From NCBI GenBank assembly GCA_020832345.1, contig JAFIEY010000064.1:1-64000 (forward strand): DNA of 64,000 nucleotides. The letters are read 5' to 3'. The notes beneath the pieces are model-generated. The model did not search any database. It worked only from the letters and a program-made list of their open reading frames with translations, and was not told where the DNA came from. The DNA comes from Cryomorphaceae bacterium. Lineage in GTDB: Bacteria > Bacteroidota > Bacteroidia > Flavobacteriales > Schleiferiaceae. Positions 3,472 to 49,487 of this stretch are shown piece after piece. Positions within the stretch are counted from its first letter, which is position 1. Each line of letters begins with the position of its first letter. The position numbers and the translations under genes are program-made.

Positions 3472-4323
3472 TCAATAGTCGCCCATGGTTTCAGGTAATT
3501 GAGCCAAAGCGCTTTCCAGCTGCTCATCGTTGGGTGCTACGCCGTGCCATTTGTGCGAACCCATCATGAAGTCAACGCCGGCACCCATTTCGGTGCGCAT
3601 AACAATGCAAACGGGTTTTCCGCGTCCGGATAGGTCAATGGCTTGTTTGAGGACATTGACAACAGTGGGTAAATCATTGCCAGCTGCGATAGTGACAACT
3701 TCCCAACCGAAGGCCGCAAACTTTTCACCGATGTTGCCCAAATCGAGGACATCTTCGGTGTTTCCGTCGATTTGTCGGCCATTGGCGTCGATGGTCGCAA
3801 TGAGGTTGTCAACTTTATTGGAGCCGGCATACATGGCCGCTTCCCAAATTTGACCTTCTTGCAGCTCACCGTCACCGTGTAGCGAAAACACCAATTTTTT
3901 ATCGGCATTGCGCTTTTTGGCCAATGCGGCGCCAATGGCGACCGAAAGTCCTTGTCCAAGTGACCCGGAGGCGATGCGAATACCGGGCAAACCCTCATGC
4001 GTGGTGGGGTGACCTTGAAGTCGGCTATTGATTTTCCGAAAGGTTTTAAGTTCCTCTACAGGGAAAAATCCGCATCGTGCCAATACACTGTAATATACTG
4101 GAGAAATATGTCCATTTGAAAGAAAAAACAAATCTTCACCCTTTCCGTCCATATCAAAATTTTTCGCATCGTAGGTCATGACGTGGCGATATAGCGCTAC
4201 AAAAAACTCCGTACATCCTAAGGAGCCTCCGGGATGACCCGAGTTTACGGCGTGTACCATGCGAACGATGTCGCGACGAACTTGCTGACAAAAATTGACG
4301 GAATCCTGCAAATCCTGATTCAT
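3472..4323 (-). CDS. tkt: Transketolase, N-terminal (TPP-binding) subunit
   Basis: The 283-residue protein is the thiamine-diphosphate half of a split transketolase in the non-oxidative pentose phosphate pathway. The TPP/Mg motif is GDGELQEGQIWEAAMYAG at 150-167, with the closing N181 in IDANGRQ. H30 lies in SGHPGGSLG. An open frame extends upstream to 4431, but the added residues do not look like transketolase. I chose MNQDLQDSVNF at 4323; MNFPPN at 4350 is the alternative. The C-terminal (pyrimidine-binding) subunit, usually next door in Bacteroidota, is not in the window. Downstream is the DUF2452 gene instead. Confidence 0.9.
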   Translation of the reverse strand: MNQDLQDSVNFCQQVRRDIVRMVHAVNSGHPGGSLGCTEFFVALYRHVMTYDAKNFDMDGKGEDLFFLSNGHISPVYYSVLARCGFFPVEELKTFRKINSRLQGHPTTHEGLPGIRIASGSLGQGLSVAIGAALAKKRNADKKLVFSLHGDGELQEGQIWEAAMYAGSNKVDNLIATIDANGRQIDGNTEDVLDLGNIGEKFAAFGWEVVTIAAGNDLPTVVNVLKQAIDLSGRGKPVCIVMRTEMGAGVDFMMGSHKWHGVAPNDEQLESALAQLPETMGDY

Positions 4324-4556
4324 ATTGATTGAGTTTGGGGGAAAATTCATTGAAATAATTGGACTAAAAGGGCGTGAATTATGATGTGTTTTCTTGGCGG
4401 CAAAGGTAAAACAAAGCGAGGTAAACCACATTATCTTTTCCCCGAATCAACAGACAAACTTGTTCACAAACAGTCTTTGCGAAAATTCGGCAACCACAGA
4501 TGAAGTCCCGGACACCAACCACGACTATTTTTATTTCCTTCTAATGGAATGAAAAC

Positions 4557-4603: not shown

Positions 4604-5914
4604 ATGTCCACCTATAAAATTTTATGTATAGAATCCAGACCGCTGATGCGAAATCTCGTTAGCGGACAGGAGGTTTTTGGGTGGTCATGGTCATTCTTTA
4701 CCTCCGTGGATGTGGCGCTTCGCAACATAGAGGTACCACCGGATTTGATTATAATCGATGGTGGCCAGGGTATCAAGCAAGATCAATTGCTTCGACTTCG
4801 GGATCACTTTCCGCTTGCTTATCTTCTGGGCGTTTTGGACGGAAATACAATGGCATCCATTCGGTTATACCACGATTGGGGCATGGATGAATTGGTCGAT
4901 CAGCAATGGGTACACGAAGCGTGGCTGTCGGGTTTGTTAAAGCGATTGGCCCATTGGTTCTCGCATTATCAGTCACTCACCGCCCTGCGAAATGAATTGG
5001 CAGCAAGTCATCATTTTGGCAATATCATAGGCGGTTCCCCAGCAGTACTGGAAATGATCAAGCATTTAAAAAAAGCCGTAAAATCTCATGTAGCCGTTTT
5101 GCTTCAGGGAGAGCCCGGTGTTGGCAAAGAAATGATAGCCAGAACCATACATGCTAATTCCACTTTTAGGGAAGGCCCTTTTGTACACTTTTCACTTTCC
5201 GGATTGGGAAGCAGTGCATTTGCCAAGGAATTGCTCAGCAATCCGGAAACCCAAACCAAAAAAATCAACGCACTGCGCAAGGCCGCTGGTGGCACACTTT
5301 ACTTAAGTGAAGTGGAAGTTCTTAGTCTTCAGCAACAAAATGCACTATACCTCGCTTTGAGCGAAATACTTTCAACCAATCACACCCCGGGTACGCGACT
5401 TATTTTTTCTTCTCAAAGTGATTTGGGACACCTGTCAGAAAGTGGAGCATTTTCATTACCTCTTTACCAGGATATTTCTCAATTGATTGTAAAAGTTCCT
5501 GCTTTACGAGAAAGGGGAAATGACGTTGGAATTTTGGCTCAGCATTTTTTGACTGTCTTTTCCGAAGAAAACAACAGTCCAAAGAAATCGTTTTCTCCCG
5601 TCGTTTTGCAGTGTTTTTTGTCGTACGACTGGCCGGGCAACATCAGAGAACTCAAATCGACTGTGGAGTTGGCGGCGGTCATTTCAAAAAAACCGGTGAT
5701 CGAAATGGACAGCATTTCCATTCCGGCGGCAAAGACATTCGACACCCATACGGTTATTTCCAACGATAAAACCCTTCGGGAATACATTGCAGATTTGGTT
5801 CAGTATCAATTGGGGCTTCATCAAAATAACGTGGTGGAAACCGCCAAAAAATTAGGTGTTGGGAAATCTACGATTTACCGGATGATTCAGAATGGGGAGG
5901 TGAAAATTCTCTAA
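4604..5914 (+). CDS. Sigma54-activator-like AAA+ regulator with degenerate receiver and no GAFTGA
   Basis: The 436-residue protein has the NtrC-like layout. A receiver-like domain (1-125) keeps an Asp at the phosphorylation position (D52, DLIIID) but lacks the conserved Thr/Ser and Lys. An AAA+ domain (about 138-375) has Walker A GEPGVGKE (169-176). A Fis-type helix-turn-helix follows (about 408-430, VVETAKKLGVGKSTIYRMIQ). ALRERGNDVG and YDWPGNIREL are typical of the family. Two key features are missing. The sigma54-contacting GAFTGA loop, expected about 205-220, is replaced by LLSNPETQTKK, and the Walker B Asp is Ser (TLYLSEVE, S235). It is probably a transcription regulator that cannot remodel sigma54 in the usual way. 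It is monocistronic, with its own promoter. Confidence 0.85.
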   Translation: MSTYKILCIESRPLMRNLVSGQEVFGWSWSFFTSVDVALRNIEVPPDLIIIDGGQGIKQDQLLRLRDHFPLAYLLGVLDGNTMASIRLYHDWGMDELVDQQWVHEAWLSGLLKRLAHWFSHYQSLTALRNELAASHHFGNIIGGSPAVLEMIKHLKKAVKSHVAVLLQGEPGVGKEMIARTIHANSTFREGPFVHFSLSGLGSSAFAKELLSNPETQTKKINALRKAAGGTLYLSEVEVLSLQQQNALYLALSEILSTNHTPGTRLIFSSQSDLGHLSESGAFSLPLYQDISQLIVKVPALRERGNDVGILAQHFLTVFSEENNSPKKSFSPVVLQCFLSYDWPGNIRELKSTVELAAVISKKPVIEMDSISIPAAKTFDTHTVISNDKTLREYIADLVQYQLGLHQNNVVETAKKLGVGKSTIYRMIQNGEVKIL

Positions 5915-5922
5915 GAAAAAAA

Positions 5923-6357
5923 TCAATCGACACTATTGGGTAAAGGTTCGTGACCGATTACCACATATTCGTAGATGCGCCAATTGACTTTAGAGGAGTC
6001 GCTTTGACTGGGATCGCCCAACAACTGGCAGCTTATAATATCGCCGGGTTTAACGCCGGGTAGGTCGAATCCGAGGTCTTTAAATTTTTCCTGTGAACGG
6101 GTAGGATTGGTGGTATAAAAGAACGAAGTCATAAAAAACTCACCTTCAAGGGGTGTAAATTTAGCCAAATCACCTTTTCTTTTCAGGTCCTTTACAAATA
6201 CAATGGCATGCCTGTCGGAATGAGGAATTACATTGATAACTTGCAGGATGACTTTGTGGAACTCATCGTTGAGAACGCGGGGTGGAGGGGGATCCTGCGC
6301 CCGTGCGACATCATTAAAAAACAGGCCAAAAGCCAAAAACAAAAAATACCTAATCAT
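5923..6357 (-). CDS. Small secreted hypothetical protein
   Basis: The protein has 144 residues from MIRYFLFLAFGLFFNDVARAQ, a clean Sec signal peptide with likely cleavage after ARA. The frame opens up to 6438, but the earlier start would bury the signal peptide, so I chose 6357. The mature part is small and polar, with no family I recognise. VKPGDIISCQLLGDPS suggests a beta-rich fold. It converges on the regulator gene with 8 bases between stop codons. A family-1 MITE-like element lies about 90 bases upstream of the start and may have changed its promoter. Confidence 0.65.
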   Translation of the reverse strand: MIRYFLFLAFGLFFNDVARAQDPPPPRVLNDEFHKVILQVINVIPHSDRHAIVFVKDLKRKGDLAKFTPLEGEFFMTSFFYTTNPTRSQEKFKDLGFDLPGVKPGDIISCQLLGDPSQSDSSKVNWRIYEYVVIGHEPLPNSVD

Positions 6358-6446
6358 AGTTGTATAAGATATAAGCCAATCGAAATGCAAATTTTGATTG
6401 AGGGACAAAGGTAAAGAAAGGCGGTGTTTAAAGTGCAATTAAAAAT

Positions 6447-18790: not shown

Positions 18791-18816
18791 AAGGAGCCCG
18801 AAGGCTCCTTTTTTTA
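18791..18816 (-). terminator. Intrinsic terminator of giant cargo gene 1
   Basis: AAGGAGCC-CGAA-GGCTCCTT (18791-18810) is a perfect 8-bp stem with a tetraloop and A/T runs on both sides. On the minus strand it follows the stop codon at 18814 at once. It also separates this gene from guaB. Confidence 0.9.
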
Positions 18817-21800
18817 TTTTATTAACGTGAATGTACCTCGCAATTCCTGCGGCAAATCACCCACTGACTGGTATCTAATCAGATAAGTGTAAACGCCGGT
18901 GGGTGCAAGTTTGCCCCCTACATAACCATCCCAGCCTTCGTTGGGGTCTTTGGCTTCGTAAACCACTTTACCCCAGCGATCGATGACAATCATTTCAAAG
19001 TTTGACATATCGACATAGCGATTCATCACACCAAATCGTCTATTGGCTTCAATTGGAGATAGTGGATTGAAAGCATTGGGCAATACCAACTTTGCCTTTT
19101 GGGTCACACACCTGCGGTTTGACCGGCTACGGAATGGTCCATATCCATCAGGTATCGGAAGCGGATTATTGATTTCAACCGCACGGACATAATAGCACAG
19201 GGTTGATTTATCGGAAGCTACGTTCCCAATTCGATCCACAAAAATGGTATCGTTGGGTCCTAAATTATCCGTCAGCAAACTAAAGCTTTCTTCTGGGCCT
19301 TCAGATCGGTAAACCTCATAACGAACTAATTCCCCCACGAAACCTTTATAGCTATTCCAGCTTACCCAATTTTGTTCATTGGACTTGGCTTCTACTTCCA
19401 CCAATATATTGTTTACGATATTGGAAGTTGTATCCACTCCACCACAACTATCAGAAGCGGTCAATCTATAATAATACACTCCATCATTTGGCTGAGCCAA
19501 ATAATCAATGTATGTAAAGGTATAAGGTGCCGTTCTTGGAGCTTGAATGGTTGTCATTTCAAAATAAGTACCATTGCGTTTTGTAGCGCGTTCGATAATT
19601 ATTTGATCGGCATCCGCATTTCCATCCACAAATCCTCGGAAGAAAATTCCATCTCCTCTTACATCCGTTTCAGAGAGATAAAGAATTTCGGATGGAGATG
19701 GCACACCTGGGAACATACATTTGGGGCAGGAAACGGATTCACGAACACTATCCATGTGGATTGCAACTGCTTTATAACAGTAACTTGCACCAGCAACAAA
19801 GTCTGTTTGTACGAAAACCGTATCATTTGGTCCACCGACAAAAAGCACCTCATCTAAGAGAACGGTACCCATTTGGTCATCGATGTCAGCTCGCAATTCA
19901 TACCCAATGATACTATTGCCCCAGCCCGGTCGATAACGATTCCATGTTAACGTATTTGTTCCACCACAAACATCCACATCACTATTCAGTAATAAAGTAT
20001 TGTGGGGAATAACTAAATCAATGTCACTAACATTATCACAACTATCAGCAGAAACAACTTTAAACCTTTCAATTCGTGAATCTGCCATAGAGTTTTGCCA
20101 GATATAAGGGGCCATTCCACCCACCGTATCGATAATTTCCCAATCGTTAATGGTTTCGTTGAAATAGAGAACGTAATAATGAACGATATCACCGGTATTC
20201 GAGGCTTGAAAATCAATCACAGCTTTACCGTCGTTATTTACGGTAACTACATTAATCACAATGGTGTCGTCATTGGTTACATCTGAAAACAAATCACCAT
20301 CAATATTGGAGTAACTATAGCAACTAAAAGAGGAATCTGCATTTACAGATCGGTATCTTACCCTAAAGTTTATATCTAATGAGCAGATTGGAACACCTTC
20401 TACCCAATCGCGAAGGGTTGATGCGCCTATTACCATCCAGTTATCCGAACCTGCCGGAATTTCAGCCTGTACCTCGTAGGTAATGGTTGTTGTATCTGCC
20501 GGTCGGGGGTCGTTCCATTTTAAGTCGGCTGTATCCTTATCAGGCGTGTTTAATGGAAAAGAGGTTAAATCAAGATCAATTGTTCCTACCACATTTGAAC
20601 CGGAGGTCAGGAAGTCACAATCCACATTTGTTCTAACTTTAAAAAAGGAAGGATGTGGAAAAGTATCTGCTATAGACCAAGTTCCCGGATTATAGTCTCC
20701 AATGGAATCAATTTTGAAAAAATTACCAACACCTACCGTATCAACCTCAATGATGTGGTAATTAAATTTAAATCCTGTATCAGCATTTGGTAAAAAGTCT
20801 ATATCGATAAATCCATTTCCATTTCGTGAAACACAAAATAGCTCTGGATTAGAACCTGTACCCGCTTGCACATCAACAATTACAGTAATTAAGGATCGTG
20901 CATTTGCAGGACAGAAGTTATCTTCCATTTTAAGGTAATATACATATTCGTTGGAGAAAACTCCACATCCAGTTTCTGACGCTAAATGCTGGCAATCAGT
21001 TTCCCAGAAAAATTCAATGGTATTGTTTAATGTAGCCACATATCCTGACTGTCCGGTTGCCGGATTAATAAGGGCACATGGCGCGTTTAGGCAGTCATTT
21101 GTATCTGTCCAATTTGATCCACCCAATTGTCCACTGGCCGCCATAAAGGTAATGGTTTGAAATTGGCTATTTGGCAACAAATCAAAATCCTGAGCGTTTA
21201 GGGTAAATCTAACGGTATCTTTTGCCATAACGGTAAAGCGGAAGGTATTTACTGCCGGAGTGGTCATGGTAAGTGTGGTATCCGGAATAAAGGTAACAGA
21301 AGGTGGGTTATTTACTGGAACGGGCATAGGCGGATTGGCTCCGGTATATGCCACGGCACAATTAATTGTTACAATTTGAATGTCCCTGTATATTGCAGCA
21401 ACGGGAATACCGCATTTATAGGCAGTAACTTCGGTATTGGTTAACCATTGACCATTGGTGTGGGATTCAAAACTCACCAAACCGGAAACGGGATCCATAA
21501 CGGCGCCAACATTAGGTGGTGTGGTAGGTAGTGGGTTATTAAAGGTATAAGAACCAGTCCAATTCACACCTGTCGTTGGATTTACCAATGGCACACCCCA
21601 ATCATATACAATGGAATCTAGTTCCACGTCAAAAGCCAGAGGGCCATACAAAAATTGATAGCCAATACATGAAACTACGTTTGGCTGCTCCAAAAATTTA
21701 GGAGAATTATCGTAACAGGGAAAATTATTCTTAAATGGTGGGAAAGCTCCGTGGGTTCTTGGGTTGGCCACATCCGGATAGGGATAAAGCTCGGCTTTTA

Positions 21801-22359
21801 GGTACATTGAGCCACCGCCTGAATTAGAGGAACTATTCCGAAATCCCCCTCCAAACTGCATACCAACCACCCATGCGCCATTAAGCGCAGGCGCGCCATT
21901 GAGTTGCATGGCATTTGAACGATAAATGAATTCCGCAACCGCTCCATTGGGCGCTTGGCTTCCCCCTGTAGGTCCAGACCAATTGTTTTGTGTAGTAATA
22001 GGAACTCCACAATTCCATGTAAGGCCTGGTGAAAAACAGGATGGGGACACATCTAATTGTGACACCAATATACTTGGCGAAGAATTTGGGCCACCACCGG
22101 CATACCCGGCAATTACAAAGTTTGGTTGGGCACTATTAAAAATTGAAATAGCACCCGTGCAATCTCCATAGAGTTTTGCCACAAATACAAACTTTCCGTG
22201 ATCGCCCACGGTAAAGTTTGAGTTGAGTTCGGCATTTATTGCCAGGCGATTGTCCTGAGAGATGCAATACCAGATGATTTCACCTCCACGCATGTGGGAA
22301 GCGGAAAGTTCTAATATTGACGCTATGGCCAACAATAGAAAAAGGATACGTGTGCGCAT
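18814..22359 (-). CDS. Giant secreted protein, T9SS gliding-type C-terminal domain (paralogue 1)
   Basis: The protein has 1,181 residues from MRTRILFLLLAIASILELSA, a Sec signal peptide. The frame opens 8 codons earlier, but that start would spoil the signal. The mature N-terminus SHMRGGEIIWYCISQDNRL belongs to the SHxxGGE surface-protein family. Several beta-sandwich, fibronectin-III-like segments fill the middle (about 400-1080; DKDTADLKWNDPRP, ETDVRGDGIFFRGF). The last 85 residues (LVLPNAFNPLSP, IDRWGKVVYEAKDP, APTGVYTYLIRYQ) are the CHU/gliding-motility C-terminal domain used for T9SS export and surface anchoring. It is the most diverged of three tandem copies, with its own promoter element and terminator. 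Confidence 0.9.
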   Translation of the reverse strand: MRTRILFLLLAIASILELSASHMRGGEIIWYCISQDNRLAINAELNSNFTVGDHGKFVFVAKLYGDCTGAISIFNSAQPNFVIAGYAGGGPNSSPSILVSQLDVSPSCFSPGLTWNCGVPITTQNNWSGPTGGSQAPNGAVAEFIYRSNAMQLNGAPALNGAWVVGMQFGGGFRNSSSNSGGGSMYLKAELYPYPDVANPRTHGAFPPFKNNFPCYDNSPKFLEQPNVVSCIGYQFLYGPLAFDVELDSIVYDWGVPLVNPTTGVNWTGSYTFNNPLPTTPPNVGAVMDPVSGLVSFESHTNGQWLTNTEVTAYKCGIPVAAIYRDIQIVTINCAVAYTGANPPMPVPVNNPPSVTFIPDTTLTMTTPAVNTFRFTVMAKDTVRFTLNAQDFDLLPNSQFQTITFMAASGQLGGSNWTDTNDCLNAPCALINPATGQSGYVATLNNTIEFFWETDCQHLASETGCGVFSNEYVYYLKMEDNFCPANARSLITVIVDVQAGTGSNPELFCVSRNGNGFIDIDFLPNADTGFKFNYHIIEVDTVGVGNFFKIDSIGDYNPGTWSIADTFPHPSFFKVRTNVDCDFLTSGSNVVGTIDLDLTSFPLNTPDKDTADLKWNDPRPADTTTITYEVQAEIPAGSDNWMVIGASTLRDWVEGVPICSLDINFRVRYRSVNADSSFSCYSYSNIDGDLFSDVTNDDTIVINVVTVNNDGKAVIDFQASNTGDIVHYYVLYFNETINDWEIIDTVGGMAPYIWQNSMADSRIERFKVVSADSCDNVSDIDLVIPHNTLLLNSDVDVCGGTNTLTWNRYRPGWGNSIIGYELRADIDDQMGTVLLDEVLFVGGPNDTVFVQTDFVAGASYCYKAVAIHMDSVRESVSCPKCMFPGVPSPSEILYLSETDVRGDGIFFRGFVDGNADADQIIIERATKRNGTYFEMTTIQAPRTAPYTFTYIDYLAQPNDGVYYYRLTASDSCGGVDTTSNIVNNILVEVEAKSNEQNWVSWNSYKGFVGELVRYEVYRSEGPEESFSLLTDNLGPNDTIFVDRIGNVASDKSTLCYYVRAVEINNPLPIPDGYGPFRSRSNRRCVTQKAKLVLPNAFNPLSPIEANRRFGVMNRYVDMSNFEMIVIDRWGKVVYEAKDPNEGWDGYVGGKLAPTGVYTYLIRYQSVGDLPQELRGTFTLIK

Positions 22360-22456
22360 AATGATTAAGGTTTTGAGATACACTTTTTAGGTCTCTTTAA
22401 ATTCTGACCAAAGAAACAATAAAAATTAATCACTTCTAAACTAAAAATTGTTAAAG

Positions 22457-22488
22457 GCAAAAGTAACTTATTTAAAGATAACTTTTGC
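22457..22488 (-). promoter_or_regulatory. Promoter element with overlapping dyad, upstream of paralogue 1
   Basis: On the minus strand TACTTTTG (22465-22458) matches TAnnTTTG. It is one arm of an inverted repeat, GCAAAAGT...ACTTTTGC (22457-22464 and 22481-22488). The dyad could be an operator. The leader to the ATG would be about 95 bases. Confidence 0.45.
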
Positions 22489-22498
22489 TATGTAAACA

Positions 22499-22530
22499 AA
22501 AAAAGGAGGCAAAATTGCCTCCTTTTTTTT
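22499..22530 (-). terminator. Intrinsic terminator of giant cargo gene 2
   Basis: AAGGAGGCAA-AA-TTGCCTCCTT, a 10-bp perfect stem, is flanked by A and T runs. It lies 17-48 bases past the stop codon at 22547 on the minus strand. Confidence 0.9.
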
Positions 22531-22546
22531 CAAATCTCAGTATTTC

Positions 22547-25500
22547 CTATTGGATCAGGGTAAATGTGCCCCGTAGTTCTTCCGGCAAAGCACCCTCGGT
22601 TTGGTAGCGGATCAAATAGGTATAAACGCCTGTGGGTGCAATACTTCCATCCACATATCCATTCCATTCTACATCGGGGTCCTTGGTTTCAAATACCACT
22701 TTTCCCCAGCGGTCAATAATTATCATTTCAAAATTATTGATGTCCACAAAGCGATTTTTGGCGCCAAAGGTGCGGTTTGCTTCAATTGTCGAAAGTGGCT
22801 TAAAGGCATTGGGGAGCACCAATTTGGCTTTTTGCGTTACACAAGCGCGATTAGAACGGCTTCGGAAAGGACCATATCCATCGGGAAGGGGTAACGGATT
22901 ATTGGTTTCGATGGCGCGTACGTAATAGCAAAGTGTGGAAACATCCCCAGGCACATCCCCTATCCTATCAACAAAAACTGTGTCATTTGGTGATACATCT
23001 TCGGCTATTAAACGATAACTGCCTTCTTCTCCTTCTGCGCGATAAACTTCGTAACGGTCTAATTCTCCGGCAAAGCCTTTATAGCTATTCCAAGTAATCC
23101 AGTTTTGCTCATTGGGTTTGGCTTCGACTTCAACATGAATATTGTTTACCGTATTTGAAATGGTATCAATACCGTCACAACTATCAGCAGCTAAAATTCG
23201 GTAATAATACACACCATCCTGAGGCTTGGCCAAATAGTCGATATAGGTAAATGTATAAGGTGCAGTTTGAGGTGCCTGAATTTTTGCAACTTCAAAGAAG
23301 GTGCCGTTGGGTTGAGTTGCTCTTTCAATTACAATGATATTGGCGTCTGCCTCTCCATCGGTAAAGCCCCTGAAGAAAATCCCGTCTCCGCGTACATCCG
23401 TCTCTGATAAGTACAACAGCTGTGTCGGCTGTGGTACCCCGGGATTCATGCATTTCGGGTATGAAAAAGATTCTCTGACACTGTCCATGTGAATGGCCAC
23501 CACCCGATAGCAATATTCCGCTCCGAAAACAAACTCATCCTGAACATAGGAAGTGTCGTCAGGGCCTCCGGAAAATAACACCACATCGGTTGTCATACCC
23601 AAATTAGGATCATCTATATCAGCTCGCAATTCATAACCTATCAAACTATTTCCCCAGCCTTCTTCATATTTATTCCAAGTCAGGGTATTGGTTCCGGCAC
23701 AAATATCAACATCAGAGTTTAACAATAAGGTATTGTGAGGAATTACCAATTGATCGTCACTGATATTACCACAACTATCTACGGAGAGCACCTTGAACTT
23801 TTCGGGGCGTGTATCAGCCTCGGAGTTTTGCCACTCATAAGCGGCCATTCCGCCGACGGTATCAATGATGTCCCAAGAATTGGTCATTTCGTTGAAGTAC
23901 AAAATATAGTAATGGACAATGTCTCCTGTATTGGAAGGTTGGAAATCAATAACAGCATTTCCATCTTCATTTACGGTGACAAAATTTATTCGCATGGTAT
24001 CGTCATTGGTAACATCTGAGAAATTTTCGCCAATCATATTTGAATAACTAAAACAAGTGAGCGTTGAATCCTGATTGACCATCTGGAAACGAACTCTAAA
24101 ATTCACATCCATATCACAAACTGAAACAGCTTCAATCCACTCCCGTTCAGTAAGGCTTCCCATAAAAACCCAATTATCGGAACCAGCGGGAATTTCTGCT
24201 TCAATCTCATAAGTCACCGGTACAGAATCATTGGGACGTGGGTCATTCCATTTTAAGTCCGCTGTATCCTTATCCGGAGAGACTTGCGGCAAGGCAGATA
24301 AATCCAAATCAATCGTTCCAGAAATTAAAGATGATGGTGTTACAAAGTTGCATCCAACGTTCATATTGATTCTGAAATAACTGGGGTGTGGAATGGTATC
24401 AGGAATAGTCCAAGTACCGGGATCATAATCGTAAACGGTATCTATTGGAAAGAAGTTTCCTGTTCCCAATGTATCTATTTCCAATATATGAAAATTAAAT
24501 CTAAAGCCGGTATCCGCACCAGGAATAAACGATAAGTCAACGCTTCCGACTCCGTCACGAGAGGCGCAATACAAATCTACAGGCGTAGAGGATGCTCCCG
24601 CTTGTACATCTACGATAACAGTCACCAAAGACCGTGAAGGGGTAGGACAAAAATTATCTTCCATTTTTAAGTAAAATACGTATTCATTTGAAAACACGCC
24701 GCACCCTACTTCAGAAGCCAAATGGTTGCAATCGGTTTCCCAAAAGAACTCCACAGTATTATTTAGCGTGGAAACATAACCGGTTTGGCCGGTTGCTGGA
24801 TTCAATAATGCACATGGTGGATTATTACAATTGAGGGTATCATCCCAATCAGGACCGCCCAATTGCCCACTTGCAGCTTGAAAGGTAATGGTTTGAAACT
24901 GGCTGTTTGGAAGCAGGTCAAAATCTTGAGCATTCAGAGTAAATGCCACGGTATCACCGGCTTCTACTGTAAAGCGAAATACATCAGGCGCCGGAGTTGT
25001 CATGGTAAGGGTTGAATCCGGAATAAAGGTAACCGATGGCGGGTTGTTAACCGGAGGGGTGATTGGTGGATTGGCCTGTGTGTAGGCAGCTCCACAATCC
25101 GCGGTAATAATTTGAATATCGCGGGAAATTAGTGCTACCGGCAATCCACATTTATAAGCAAGCACTTCTGTATTGGTTGTAAAAACACCTGCCACATGGG
25201 ATTCAAAGGTAATAAGACCGGAAACTGGATCCAAATTGGCGCCTACACTTGGCGCAGTAGAAGGCAGTGGGTTGGTCGCAGAATATCCGGCAGAAAAAGT
25301 TACAGCATTGTTGGGTGGGCCAACTAAGGGCACACCCCAATCATATACAATTGAATCCAATTCAACGTCAAATGCCAATGGCCCATAAGTAAATGGCTCC
25401 CCCATACAAGAAACTACGTTGGGTAATTCCAAAAATTCCGGTGAATTATCGTAGCAGGGATTCATACTTCTAAAAGGAGGGAGAGCACCATGGGTTCTGG

Positions 25501-26107
25501 GATTTGGCACATTGGGATAAGGATACATTTCAGATTTCAGGTAAAAGTTTCCACCATTTACATTAGTAGCATTGTTTCGACAACAATGTCCGGCACCGGC
25601 AGTTGTTTGCAGTCCAATAATCCATGCACCGTTTTGTGGAGGTGAACCATTGAGTTGAAAAGCATTTGAACGATAAACATGTTCTGAAACCGCTCCAACC
25701 CCATTAAGTGGACCGGAAGCACTATTGCTGGCAGTTGGGGGATTACATGTCCATCGCAAATCACTGGAATAACAATCCGGAGAAATATCTGTTGAAGCAA
25801 CTAAAATTACCGGTGAAGAATTGGGTCCTCCCCCACTATAACCTCCTATATTAAACTGCATTTGAGTCACAAAAGACGTAACAAAAATATTATTTAGTCC
25901 GCCGCAATCGCCGTAAAGTTTTGCAACAAAAACAAATTTCCCGTGATCGGCTACGGTGAAATTAGAATTGAGTTCAGCATTAATTTCCAATCTATTGTCC
26001 TGTGATATACAATACCAAAAGATTTCTCCACCCCGAACATGCGAGGCTTCGGCATTAAATATGATTAATAATGGTAGTAAAATTAGTAAACGCTTAAATG
26101 CTTTCAT
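22547..26107 (-). CDS. Giant secreted protein, T9SS gliding-type C-terminal domain (paralogue 2)
   Basis: The 1,186-residue protein has signal peptide MKAFKRLLILLPLLIIFNAE, then SHVRGGEIFWYCISQDNRLE. It has the same domain order as its neighbours: an SHxxGGE-type N-terminal region (20-350), a Cys-containing block with ETDCNHLASEVGCGVFSNEY (about 470), repeated fibronectin-like sandwiches, and the CHU C-terminal domain (LVLPNAFKPLST, IDRWGKVVFETKDP, APTGVYTYLIRYQ). It is nearly collinear with paralogue 3, with long identical stretches, which indicates a recent duplication. It is probably exported by T9SS to the cell surface as an adhesin or motility-related protein. The ligand is unknown. Confidence 0.9.
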   Translation of the reverse strand: MKAFKRLLILLPLLIIFNAEASHVRGGEIFWYCISQDNRLEINAELNSNFTVADHGKFVFVAKLYGDCGGLNNIFVTSFVTQMQFNIGGYSGGGPNSSPVILVASTDISPDCYSSDLRWTCNPPTASNSASGPLNGVGAVSEHVYRSNAFQLNGSPPQNGAWIIGLQTTAGAGHCCRNNATNVNGGNFYLKSEMYPYPNVPNPRTHGALPPFRSMNPCYDNSPEFLELPNVVSCMGEPFTYGPLAFDVELDSIVYDWGVPLVGPPNNAVTFSAGYSATNPLPSTAPSVGANLDPVSGLITFESHVAGVFTTNTEVLAYKCGLPVALISRDIQIITADCGAAYTQANPPITPPVNNPPSVTFIPDSTLTMTTPAPDVFRFTVEAGDTVAFTLNAQDFDLLPNSQFQTITFQAASGQLGGPDWDDTLNCNNPPCALLNPATGQTGYVSTLNNTVEFFWETDCNHLASEVGCGVFSNEYVFYLKMEDNFCPTPSRSLVTVIVDVQAGASSTPVDLYCASRDGVGSVDLSFIPGADTGFRFNFHILEIDTLGTGNFFPIDTVYDYDPGTWTIPDTIPHPSYFRINMNVGCNFVTPSSLISGTIDLDLSALPQVSPDKDTADLKWNDPRPNDSVPVTYEIEAEIPAGSDNWVFMGSLTEREWIEAVSVCDMDVNFRVRFQMVNQDSTLTCFSYSNMIGENFSDVTNDDTMRINFVTVNEDGNAVIDFQPSNTGDIVHYYILYFNEMTNSWDIIDTVGGMAAYEWQNSEADTRPEKFKVLSVDSCGNISDDQLVIPHNTLLLNSDVDICAGTNTLTWNKYEEGWGNSLIGYELRADIDDPNLGMTTDVVLFSGGPDDTSYVQDEFVFGAEYCYRVVAIHMDSVRESFSYPKCMNPGVPQPTQLLYLSETDVRGDGIFFRGFTDGEADANIIVIERATQPNGTFFEVAKIQAPQTAPYTFTYIDYLAKPQDGVYYYRILAADSCDGIDTISNTVNNIHVEVEAKPNEQNWITWNSYKGFAGELDRYEVYRAEGEEGSYRLIAEDVSPNDTVFVDRIGDVPGDVSTLCYYVRAIETNNPLPLPDGYGPFRSRSNRACVTQKAKLVLPNAFKPLSTIEANRTFGAKNRFVDINNFEMIIIDRWGKVVFETKDPDVEWNGYVDGSIAPTGVYTYLIRYQTEGALPEELRGTFTLIQ

Positions 26108-26157
26108 GGCGCAAGAATTTAGGTTAATGTTTACGATACTATATCGTTTACAGTGTT

Positions 26158-26165
26158 CAAATTTA
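26158..26165 (-). promoter_or_regulatory. -7 promoter element of paralogue 2
   Basis: The minus strand reads TAAATTTG, a full TAnnTTTG match, about 50 bases before the start codon at 26107. No good -33 box is seen. The same octamer lies upstream of paralogue 3. Confidence 0.45.
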
Positions 26166-26235
26166 AGACATTATACGTGCTAAAAATTCTCCAAATGAGT
26201 CAACCCCTTGTTTGATTTAGGCAACGGGGTAAAAA

Positions 26236-26258
26236 AAAAGAGACCCGAAGGCCTCTTT
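26236..26258 (-). terminator. Intrinsic terminator of giant cargo gene 3
   Basis: AAAGAGACC-CGAA-GGCCTCTTT forms a stem with one mismatch and a CGAA loop like that of gene 1, with A and T tracts at its edges. It lies 27-49 bases beyond the stop codon at 26285. Confidence 0.85.
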
Positions 26259-26284
26259 AGATTTTTTATAGTGAAAATGATCCG

Positions 26285-29200
26285 TTATTGTATCAGTGTG
26301 AAGGTGCCTCGAACCTCTTCGGGCAATGCACCCACCGATTGATAGCGAATGAGATAGCTATATACACCTGTTGGTGCCAGAGAACCTCCAATATATCCAT
26401 CCCATTCTATATTTGGATCTTTGGTTTCAAACACAACCTTGCCCCAGCGATCTATAATAATCATCTCAAAGTTGTTTACATCGGCAAAGCGATTCTTGGC
26501 ACCGAAGGTTCGGTTTGCCTCAATCGGTGATAGTGGTTTAAAGGCATTTGGAAGAACCAACTTGACTTTTTGCGTAACGCATGCTCGATTTGAACGACTG
26601 CGGAATGGACCGTAACCATCAGGAAGGAGTTGTGGATTATTGGTCTCAACGGCGCGGACATAATAACAAAGTGTCGAAACATCCTTAGCAACATTACCTA
26701 TTCGATCAACATAAACCGTGTCATTTGGCGATACATTTTCTGCTATTAGGCTAAAACTTCCATCTTCGCCTTCAGCACGATACACTTCATATCGATCCAA
26801 ATCCCCGGCAAAACCTTTGTAACTATTCCAGGTAACCCAATTCTGCTCATTGCGTTTGGCCTCTACTTCCACCTTAATATTATTTACAATGTTGGAAATG
26901 GTGTCAACACCGTCACAACTGTCAGCAGCAATGATTCTGTAGTAATACACCCCATCATTGGGTTTTGCCAAGTAATCAATATAGGTAAAGGTATAGGGCG
27001 CTGTTTGCGGCGCTTGAATTCTTGCTAACTCAAAATATGTTCCGTTCCGCTGTGTCGCCCTTTCTACAATAATGGTATTGGCATCTGCATCACCATCGGT
27101 AAAGCCACGGAAGAAAACACCATCGCCACGGACATCAGTCTCCGACAAATACAATAACTCGGTTGGCTGTGGTACACCGGGATTCATACATATTGGGTAA
27201 GAAGAAGACTCCCTTACACTGTCGAGGTGGATAGCAACTACTCGATAACAATATATCGCACCGGATATAAATTCTTCCTGAATAAATGATGTATCATTCG
27301 GGCCTCCGGTAAACAAAACTACATCGGGCATCATACCCACATTGGGATCATCTATATCTGCACGCAATTCATATCCAACCAGGCTATTACCCCAACCCTG
27401 CGCATATCTATTCCAAGTGAGGGTATTGATTCCTTCACAAACATCTACCTCTGAGTTTAGCACCAAAGTATTATGGGGAATCACCAATTGATCGTCGCTA
27501 ATGTTTCCACAACTATCTACGGAAAGTATTTTAAATTTCTCGGGGCGGGTATCGGCTTGAGAGTTTTGCCATACATAGGCAGCCATACCACCAACCGTAT
27601 CGATAATGTCCCATGAGCTTGTCATTTCGTTAAAGTACAGAATATAATAGTGGACAATATCTCCGGTGTTGGAAGGTTGAAAATCAATAACAGCAAGTCC
27701 ATCTTCATTTACGGTGACATAATTAATACGCATGGTATCATCATTAGTGACATCTGAAAATTGAGCTCCAGTCATATTGGAATAACTGTAACAGGACAAT
27801 GTCGAATCTTGATTGACCATTGCGAAGCGAACCCTAAAGTTAACATTCATATCACAAACAGAAACGGCTTCAATCCATTCCCGATCAGTTAGACTACCCA
27901 AAAACACCCAATTATCTGATCCCGCCGGAATTTCTGCTTCTATCTCATAAGTCACTGGCACGGAATCATTGGGTCTCGGATTATTCCATTTCAAATCTGC
28001 TGTATCTTTATCCGGCGAAACCAGTGGTAATGGAGTTAAGTCCAAAGCCATTGTTCCGGCAATAAGTGAAGGAGGTGTTGTAAATTCACATCCAACATTC
28101 ATACGGATTCTAAAGTAGCTTGGATGGGGAATGGTATCGGGAAGAGACCAGGTAACCGGATCATAATCATAAATGGTATCAATGGCAAAAAAGTTCCCTG
28201 CCCCAACCGTGTCAATTTCCACGATGTGAAAATTAAACCTAAAACCGGTATCCACACCGGGAATAAATGAAAGATCAACACTACCCATTCCGTCGCGAGA
28301 GGCACAATACAAATCAACCGGGGTTGAAGACGCACCTGCTTGAACATCTACCACGACCGTTACAAGAGAACGAGAAGGTGTAGGACAAAAGTTGTCTTCC
28401 ATCTTCAGATAAAAAACGTATTCATTGGAAAACACGCCGCAACCAACTTCAGAAGCCAAGTGATTACAATCCGTTACCCAAAAGAATTCAACCGTATTAT
28501 TGAGTGAAGCTACATATCCAGTTTGACCTGTTGCTGGATTCAGTAATGCACAAGGGGGGTTGTTACAATTATTGGTATCTGTCCAGTTTGAACCACCCAA
28601 CTGACCACTGGCGGCTTCAAAGGTTATGGTCTGAAACTGGCTATTGGGCAGCAAGTCGAAATCCTGCGCATTTAGAGTAAAAGCGACTGTATCACCTGCT
28701 TCTACCGTAAAACGAAAAATATCCGGTGCAGGGGTTGTCATTGTTAATGTTGAATCCGGGATAAATGTAACTGAGGGTGGGTTGTTTACCGGTGGGGTAA
28801 TGGGCGGGTTAGCTTGAGTATAAGCAGCAGCACAATTGGCTGTAACAATCTGAATATCACGAGAAATTAGTGCTACTGGCAAGCCACATTTATAGGCCAA
28901 AACCTCTGTATTTGTGGTATAAGTTCCCGCTGCGTGAGATTCAAAAGTTATTAACCCAGTTACCGGATCTAAATTAGCTGCAACACTTGGGGCGGTGGAA
29001 GGCATAGGGTTGGTGGCAGAAAAGCCCGCAGAAAATGTTACGGAGTTATTTGGCGGACTGATAAGTGGTGTTCCCCAATCGTAAACCAGAGAATCTAACT
29101 CAATGTCAAACGCTAAAGGCCCATAAGTGAAAGGTTCTCCTATACAAGAAACCACATTGGGTAATTCAAGAAATTCTGGTGAGTTATCATAACAGGGATT

Positions 29201-29845
29201 CATGCTTCTAAAAGGTGGTAAAGAACCGTGTGCTCTTGGGTTAGCAACGTTAGGATATGGATACATTTCCGACTTGAGGTAAAAGGTTGGTTGTCCATTC
29301 ACATTATTTGAACCATTTCTGCAACAATGCCCTGCACCAGCTGTTGTTTGAAGTCCTATGACCCATGCACCGTTCGTCGGTGGAGAACCATTGAGTTGGA
29401 AAGCATTGGATCGATACACGTGTTCAGAAACGGAACCCGCTCCATTTAATGGACCTTGGGCACTATTGCTATTGGTAGGTGGATTGCACGTCCAGCGCAA
29501 GGCACTAGAAAAACAATCCGGAGAAATATCTGTTGAAGAAACCAATATTACTGGAGAAGAGTTTGGTCCTCCACCACTGTATCCACCTATATTAAATTGC
29601 ATGGTGGTAACAAAGGAGTTTATAAAAATGTTATTTGCCCCGGTACAATCACCATAAAGCTTGGCCACAAATACAAATTTTCCGTGGTCGGCTACGGTGA
29701 AATTAGAATTAAACTCAGCATTAATTTCCAATCTATTATCTTGCGAAATACAATACCAAAAAACTTCACCACCCCGAACGTGAGAAGCTTCAGCAAGAAA
29801 GGTGAAACTCAATGCAACTAAAAGCGCTCCGATAATTTTTTTCAT
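26285..29845 (-). CDS. Giant secreted protein, T9SS gliding-type C-terminal domain (paralogue 3)
   Basis: The 1,186-residue protein has signal peptide MKKIIGALLVALSFTFLAEA and mature start SHVRGGEVFWYCISQDNRLE. Layout and Cys positions match paralogue 2 almost residue for residue: AGAGHCCRN near 165, TDCNHLASEVGCGVFSNEY near 470. The CHU-type domain closes the protein (LVLPNAFKPLSP, IDRWGKVVFETKDP, APTGVYSYLIRYQ). The signal peptides of the three copies differ far more than the mature N-termini, so the mature domain is under constraint. It is the promoter-distal member of the array as drawn and is transcribed towards paralogue 2. Confidence 0.9.
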   Translation of the reverse strand: MKKIIGALLVALSFTFLAEASHVRGGEVFWYCISQDNRLEINAEFNSNFTVADHGKFVFVAKLYGDCTGANNIFINSFVTTMQFNIGGYSGGGPNSSPVILVSSTDISPDCFSSALRWTCNPPTNSNSAQGPLNGAGSVSEHVYRSNAFQLNGSPPTNGAWVIGLQTTAGAGHCCRNGSNNVNGQPTFYLKSEMYPYPNVANPRAHGSLPPFRSMNPCYDNSPEFLELPNVVSCIGEPFTYGPLAFDIELDSLVYDWGTPLISPPNNSVTFSAGFSATNPMPSTAPSVAANLDPVTGLITFESHAAGTYTTNTEVLAYKCGLPVALISRDIQIVTANCAAAYTQANPPITPPVNNPPSVTFIPDSTLTMTTPAPDIFRFTVEAGDTVAFTLNAQDFDLLPNSQFQTITFEAASGQLGGSNWTDTNNCNNPPCALLNPATGQTGYVASLNNTVEFFWVTDCNHLASEVGCGVFSNEYVFYLKMEDNFCPTPSRSLVTVVVDVQAGASSTPVDLYCASRDGMGSVDLSFIPGVDTGFRFNFHIVEIDTVGAGNFFAIDTIYDYDPVTWSLPDTIPHPSYFRIRMNVGCEFTTPPSLIAGTMALDLTPLPLVSPDKDTADLKWNNPRPNDSVPVTYEIEAEIPAGSDNWVFLGSLTDREWIEAVSVCDMNVNFRVRFAMVNQDSTLSCYSYSNMTGAQFSDVTNDDTMRINYVTVNEDGLAVIDFQPSNTGDIVHYYILYFNEMTSSWDIIDTVGGMAAYVWQNSQADTRPEKFKILSVDSCGNISDDQLVIPHNTLVLNSEVDVCEGINTLTWNRYAQGWGNSLVGYELRADIDDPNVGMMPDVVLFTGGPNDTSFIQEEFISGAIYCYRVVAIHLDSVRESSSYPICMNPGVPQPTELLYLSETDVRGDGVFFRGFTDGDADANTIIVERATQRNGTYFELARIQAPQTAPYTFTYIDYLAKPNDGVYYYRIIAADSCDGVDTISNIVNNIKVEVEAKRNEQNWVTWNSYKGFAGDLDRYEVYRAEGEDGSFSLIAENVSPNDTVYVDRIGNVAKDVSTLCYYVRAVETNNPQLLPDGYGPFRSRSNRACVTQKVKLVLPNAFKPLSPIEANRTFGAKNRFADVNNFEMIIIDRWGKVVFETKDPNIEWDGYIGGSLAPTGVYSYLIRYQSVGALPEEVRGTFTLIQ

Positions 29846-49411: not shown

Positions 49412-49412
49412 G

Positions 49413-49487
49413 TGAGCGATACTGGATTCGAACCAGTGACCCCTACCCTGTCAAGGTAGTGCTCTGAACCAACTGAGCTAATCGCCC
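49413..49487 (-). tRNA. tRNA-Val (anticodon GAC)
   Basis: Read on the minus strand, the acceptor GGGCGAT pairs with ATCGCTC. The D-arm contains TTAGCTCAGTTGGT. The anticodon arm is CTACC-TTGACAG-GGTAG with anticodon GAC. The T-arm holds GGTTCGAATCC. The discriminator is A, and CCA is not encoded. It reads GUC and GUU valine codons. Confidence 0.95.

Follow-up and report, generated by a model that had tools for sequence, protein, structure and literature searches.

The gene at positions 4604–5914 (forward strand) of the window, by which we mean the whole 64,000-nucleotide stretch of DNA analysed, encodes a degenerate, bEBP-like regulator of the NtrC family with 436 aa, in which the predicted fold of the family is kept and the catalytic residues are lost. 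Judging from its sequence, the gene is real and maintained, and the protein is probably motor-dead. We think it likely that the regulator is a DNA-binding protein that acts without sigma-54, functionally like VpsR, TyrR, DhaR and the NtrC of Rhodobacter capsulatus.

The family and domain assignment was based on the ORF, Pfam, an AlphaFold2 model and Foldseek. The protein consists of a receiver-like domain (residues 1 to about 120), a linker helix, an AAA+ domain (140–300), a lid (301–371) and an HTH (about 390–436), and Pfam matched Sigma54_activ_2 (1.5e-22), Sigma54_activat (5e-20) and AAA_lid_14 (3e-20). In the model, whose input was a 41-row alignment of the window protein and viral-contig relatives only, receiver, AAA+ domain, lid and HTH are all present (pLDDT 87.5), and its Foldseek matches were NtrX, NtrC1, VpsR and the AAA+ domains of ZraR and FlrC, with a target TM of about 0.85. 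Pfam, model and Foldseek together show the domain set expected of a sigma-54-dependent bEBP, an AAA+ domain of the Sigma54_activat type followed by lid and HTH. A structural prediction of the L1 loop had been proposed in the preliminary description, and the stretch around residues 211–220 was modelled with low confidence (pLDDT about 58).

The state of each motif was called by alignment of the protein against intact relatives, and all features given below lie on the forward strand. In the receiver-like domain (4628–4906), E10 and D52 are kept, the second acid is replaced by S11, and the switch Ser/Thr and Lys are lost. This domain can be recognized only in the alignment and the model; with only E10 and D52 remaining and no Response_reg match at E≤1 in Pfam, it does not look like a phosphorylatable response regulator. 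In the AAA+ domain, Walker A (GEPGVGKE, residues 169–176, 5108–5131) and sensor II (WPGNIREL, 343–350, 5630–5653) are intact, and K175 of Walker A, E236 of Walker B and R348 of sensor II are still present. The L1 region ELLSNPETQTKKINAL (209–224, 5228–5275; low model confidence) has a shorter loop without GAFTGA, and aligns as ELLSN-PE-----TQTKK in the regulator versus ELFGH-EKGAFTGA in intact relatives. Walker B (TLYLSEVE, 231–238, 5294–5317) reads LYLSEVE versus LFLDEIG in intact relatives, i.e. the Asp is replaced by S235 and Glu236 is kept. A frameshift or an assembly artefact was considered and rejected; the other frames around L1 contain no GAFTGA, and codon-position GC is like that of the neighbouring genes. 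Thus, what the preliminary description had read from the sequence, i.e. an L1 without GAFTGA, a Ser in place of the Walker B acid, retained Walker A and late AAA+ motifs, and a receiver with one Asp and other key residues lost, was borne out by the alignment.

Further losses were absent from that description. The switch-asparagine region (FSLSGLG, 196–202, 5189–5209) has S197 in place of Asn, sensor I is altered and reads SSQ, and the arginine-finger segment changed from FREDLYYRL in intact relatives to FSLPLYQDI (283–291, 5450–5476), in which both Arg are gone (S284 and D290). The two positions correspond to R162 and R168 of PspF. The role of R168 has been described (PMC7175178). The regulator therefore has neither the GAFTGA of a sigma-54 activator in L1 nor the residues with which such activators hydrolyse ATP, i.e. 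the Walker B Asp-Glu pair and the arginine fingers (S235, S284, D290). Because the arginine fingers and the switch Asn are also lost, the earlier claim that such a protein should not open sigma-54 complexes is now well supported, on grounds beyond those given at the time. The HTH recognition segment (VGKSTIYRMI, 419–428, 5858–5887) is as in intact relatives, and the regulator has the NtrC-type AAA+ domain plus HTH with a deleted or altered L1 that characterizes the GAFTGA-less, sigma-70-acting bEBP homologues.

The regulator gene lies between a divergent gene for the transketolase N-terminal subunit (3472–4431, reverse strand) and a convergent, conserved gene with no Pfam hit (5923–6438, reverse strand), and a synteny chain of homologues of these two genes connects all five regulator genes of the genus. 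In three congeners (G001, G002 and G004), the transketolase gene (83–84% identity) flanks a divergently oriented, intact GAFTGA regulator. Like the window regulator, these proteins stand in the slot beside transketolase, with similar length and the same HTH, but unlike it they carry the full GAFTGA, the Walker B DE, the arginine fingers and the receiver acids. In G003 no regulator lies alongside transketolase, and a homologue (62%) of the ORF at 5923–6438 directly precedes a degenerate regulator (L049:3589-4890), which is an open frame without GAFTGA, reads YLDGI and FHQELHQLL, and has GPAGSGKK, and Asp-Gly at Walker B. Between the genome of the window (G000) and its congeners, other bEBPs are 72–80% identical, compared with about 33% for this regulator. 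When four other proteins were concatenated, the resulting tree separated G000 and G003 from the three intact species (support 100/100), which is consistent with a single onset of degeneration in G000 and G003; the two sequences eroded differently, and there may have been two onsets. In gene trees, with branches of 4–10 changes per column, the regulator could not be placed, and its clade with the intact congeners was neither rejected by the tree test (p-AU 0.46) nor demonstrated. Since the extreme branch length makes this placement uncertain, synteny and family resemblance are the grounds for orthology. A search of genome contigs for close relatives returned a single distant match, from Clostridia. 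Elsewhere in the window, the reverse strand carries three tandem paralogues of large secreted type (18814–29845; about 1186 aa, 69–86% identical), of which the one scanned has a C-terminal CHU_C type IX secretion signal, and a single tRNA-Val (gac) gene at 49412–49487. From gene content, the host belongs to the Bacteroidota and probably to the Flavobacteriales.

To ask which parts of the protein were retained, positions invariant in 27 intact relatives were used as the reference. The window protein keeps 13/14 of them in the HTH and 19/23 in the lid, but just 31/85 in the AAA+ core and 9/32 in the receiver, and the corresponding counts of the G003 copy are 12/14, 16/23, 38/85 and 10/32. Retention in lid and HTH versus the rest gave a Fisher p of 3e-8, which is indicative as the positions are not fully independent. 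Among the intact congeners, the AAA+ core is the best conserved part (82% identity), followed by HTH (78%), receiver (71%) and lid (60%). When neutral decay was simulated down to 33% identity, at least nine stops arose in 300/300 runs and the frame stayed open in 0/300. Because domain retention is biased and neutral simulation always gave stops, the sequence data indicate that the gene is maintained, its DNA-binding end best of all. A former sigma-54 activator heading to a pseudogene would agree with the intact orthologues in three congeners, the strong rate acceleration of the gene, the loss of receiver and motor residues, and the lack of an Hpt gene beside the regulator in G000. However, the 436-codon frame is open with ordinary codon-position GC, the second degenerate copy in G003 is open too, HTH and lid invariants are retained far above those of other parts, and no simulated frame survived, so that decay appears very improbable. 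The preliminary description had named intact orthologues as a sign that this copy is just decaying; positional orthologues with GAFTGA do exist in three congeners, but the decay they were to indicate is contradicted.

In many genomes of the order, a small Hpt-domain gene lies directly downstream of the intact regulator (L048:2756-3058, L047:10766-11074 and equivalents). Of the 15 genomes with a match, 13 have the Hpt gene directly adjoining the regulator, G001 and G002 included. G000, G003 and G004 gave no match. As G004 is intact although no Hpt gene was detected, the absence of Hpt alone is not diagnostic. In the family survey of 394 genomes of the order, 65 had a match at E≤1e-36, and among the family sequences examined a GAFTGA-like L1 was lost in L001/L028, L023/L024 and L026/L027. 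By sequence, GAFTGA loss thus also occurred in two further lineages of the order, making at least three in all. L023/L024, from genera g16 and g8 within the same family, have Walker B and receiver intact. L026/L027 (family f2) have FIEGF or FFEGF at Walker B, and in L027 the receiver is intact and an Hpt gene adjoins the regulator. These four sequences are at different stages of motif loss. The three groups look like steps along one path, although this is a cross-lineage pattern and does not establish in which order the events took place.

Relatives without GAFTGA have been described before. TyrR, DhaR and HupR are bEBP paralogues with a defective GAFTGA that use sigma-70, as inferred also for VpsR and YplP (PMC3162934). 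VpsR and the NtrC proteins of R. capsulatus and Caulobacter lost GAFTGA and use sigma-70; in both NtrC proteins L1 deletions remove the motif and both act at sigma-70 promoters, where VpsR works without ATP (PMC10274813). VpsR of Vibrio cholerae (PDB 7v2b) is the second-best PDB sequence match of the regulator. Since it ranks last of 35 for the intact orthologue, this suggests that the regulator converged on the VpsR pattern; the sequence is near VpsR, yet synteny makes the regulator an orthologue of the canonical regulator of the genus. Both proteins have the NtrC-family receiver/AAA+/HTH architecture, and in alignment with the regulator VpsR has no GAFTGA, no Walker B Asp (LLLND) and neither of the arginine fingers (FNEELYHYI). 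VpsR differs in being Proteobacterial, in controlling polysaccharide genes and binding c-di-GMP, and it is distant over the AAA+ domain. The two NtrC proteins resemble the regulator in the removal of GAFTGA by an L1 deletion, but they use a phosphorylatable Asp whereas the receiver of the regulator is eroded, and Caulobacter NtrC depends on residues of Walker A and B whereas Walker B of the regulator is eroded. TyrR, DhaR and HupR have sensory domains and ligands different from those of the regulator. DhaR is its best NCBIfam match; identity with DhaR (162 bits, cut-off 551) or TyrR (93 bits, cut-off 576) was rejected.

A check for rpoN had been recommended, and the gene is present in G000 (Sigma54_DBD on contig C59, E=7e-53), together with three bEBP-type proteins other than the regulator; hence, sigma-54 control continues without it. 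One of these, on contig C153, is a related, intact, GAFTGA-bearing paralogue that adjoins a hybrid kinase containing an Hpt domain. This paralogue, the two other bEBPs, rpoN and the AAA+ fold retained in the model would suit a dominant modulator, which hetero-oligomerizes or competes for sites with intact bEBPs and so damps sigma-54 transcription. However, G003 has the degenerate protein without such a close paralogue, and the HTH is just 43% identical to that of the C153 paralogue, so we consider this unlikely. A scan of the window for sigma-54 promoters gave 2 matches versus 5.9 expected, i.e. no excess, and among inverted repeats next to the regulator gene there was no convincing operator. 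In the alignment of the transketolase–regulator spacer, CAAAGGTA (TACCTTTG on the transketolase strand; 4400–4410) is conserved in four congeners, and no conserved regulator site was seen. Upstream of the transketolase gene, this element resembles the flavobacterial primary-sigma −7 box, for which the motif TAnnTTTG has been reported (PMC9723704).

The likely role as a DNA-binding protein independent of sigma-54 probably arose as follows. The ancestor would have been a phosphorelay-controlled sigma-54 activator with receiver, GAFTGA-bearing AAA+ motor and HTH, a type whose gene often has an Hpt gene as its neighbour. In the G000 and G003 lineages, the loop that contacts sigma-54, the residues for ATP hydrolysis and the phospho-switch would then have eroded, while selection held the HTH and the adjacent lid. 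The present protein probably still binds a DNA site of the ancestral type as a dimer or oligomer and regulates primary-sigma promoters directly as an activator or a repressor, possibly holding nucleotide unhydrolysed as a structural ligand. The roles offered in the preliminary description included DNA binding, repression and action with primary sigma; a DNA-binding role independent of sigma-54 fits the retention of HTH and lid, activator and repressor are not distinguishable from sequence, and the conserved HTH could equally belong to a protein merely blocking other regulators. As a sub-case, Walker A and sensor II may bind nucleotide without hydrolysis and thereby set oligomer state and promoter action. 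Such a nucleotide- or ligand-gated switch, which the preliminary description had raised in the form of an ATP switch, is possible given that K175, E236 and R348 are kept, and has precedents in VpsR, which binds c-di-GMP, and in R. capsulatus NtrC, for which ATP binding but not hydrolysis is needed (PMC10274813, PMC11139211); against it stand the loss of the Walker B Asp in the regulator, and GPAGSGKK and the Asp-Gly at Walker B in the G003 copy.

We tentatively propose, with considerable doubt, that a sigma-54 activator was converted within this genus into a hydrolysis-dead, phosphorylation-blind regulator which kept its sites, that its regulon moved to primary-sigma control, and that relatives represent graded intermediates in which GAFTGA, then Walker B and then the receiver were lost. 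GAFTGA-less bEBP homologues are already known, mostly from a few Proteobacteria, and the useful part is the switch within one genus, in which congeners have intact orthologues in the same gene slot. These genomes provide natural pairs from before and after the loss, in which the rewiring of a sigma-54 regulon could be tested. They also show that a Pfam match by itself is no valid ground for calling such proteins sigma-54 activators.
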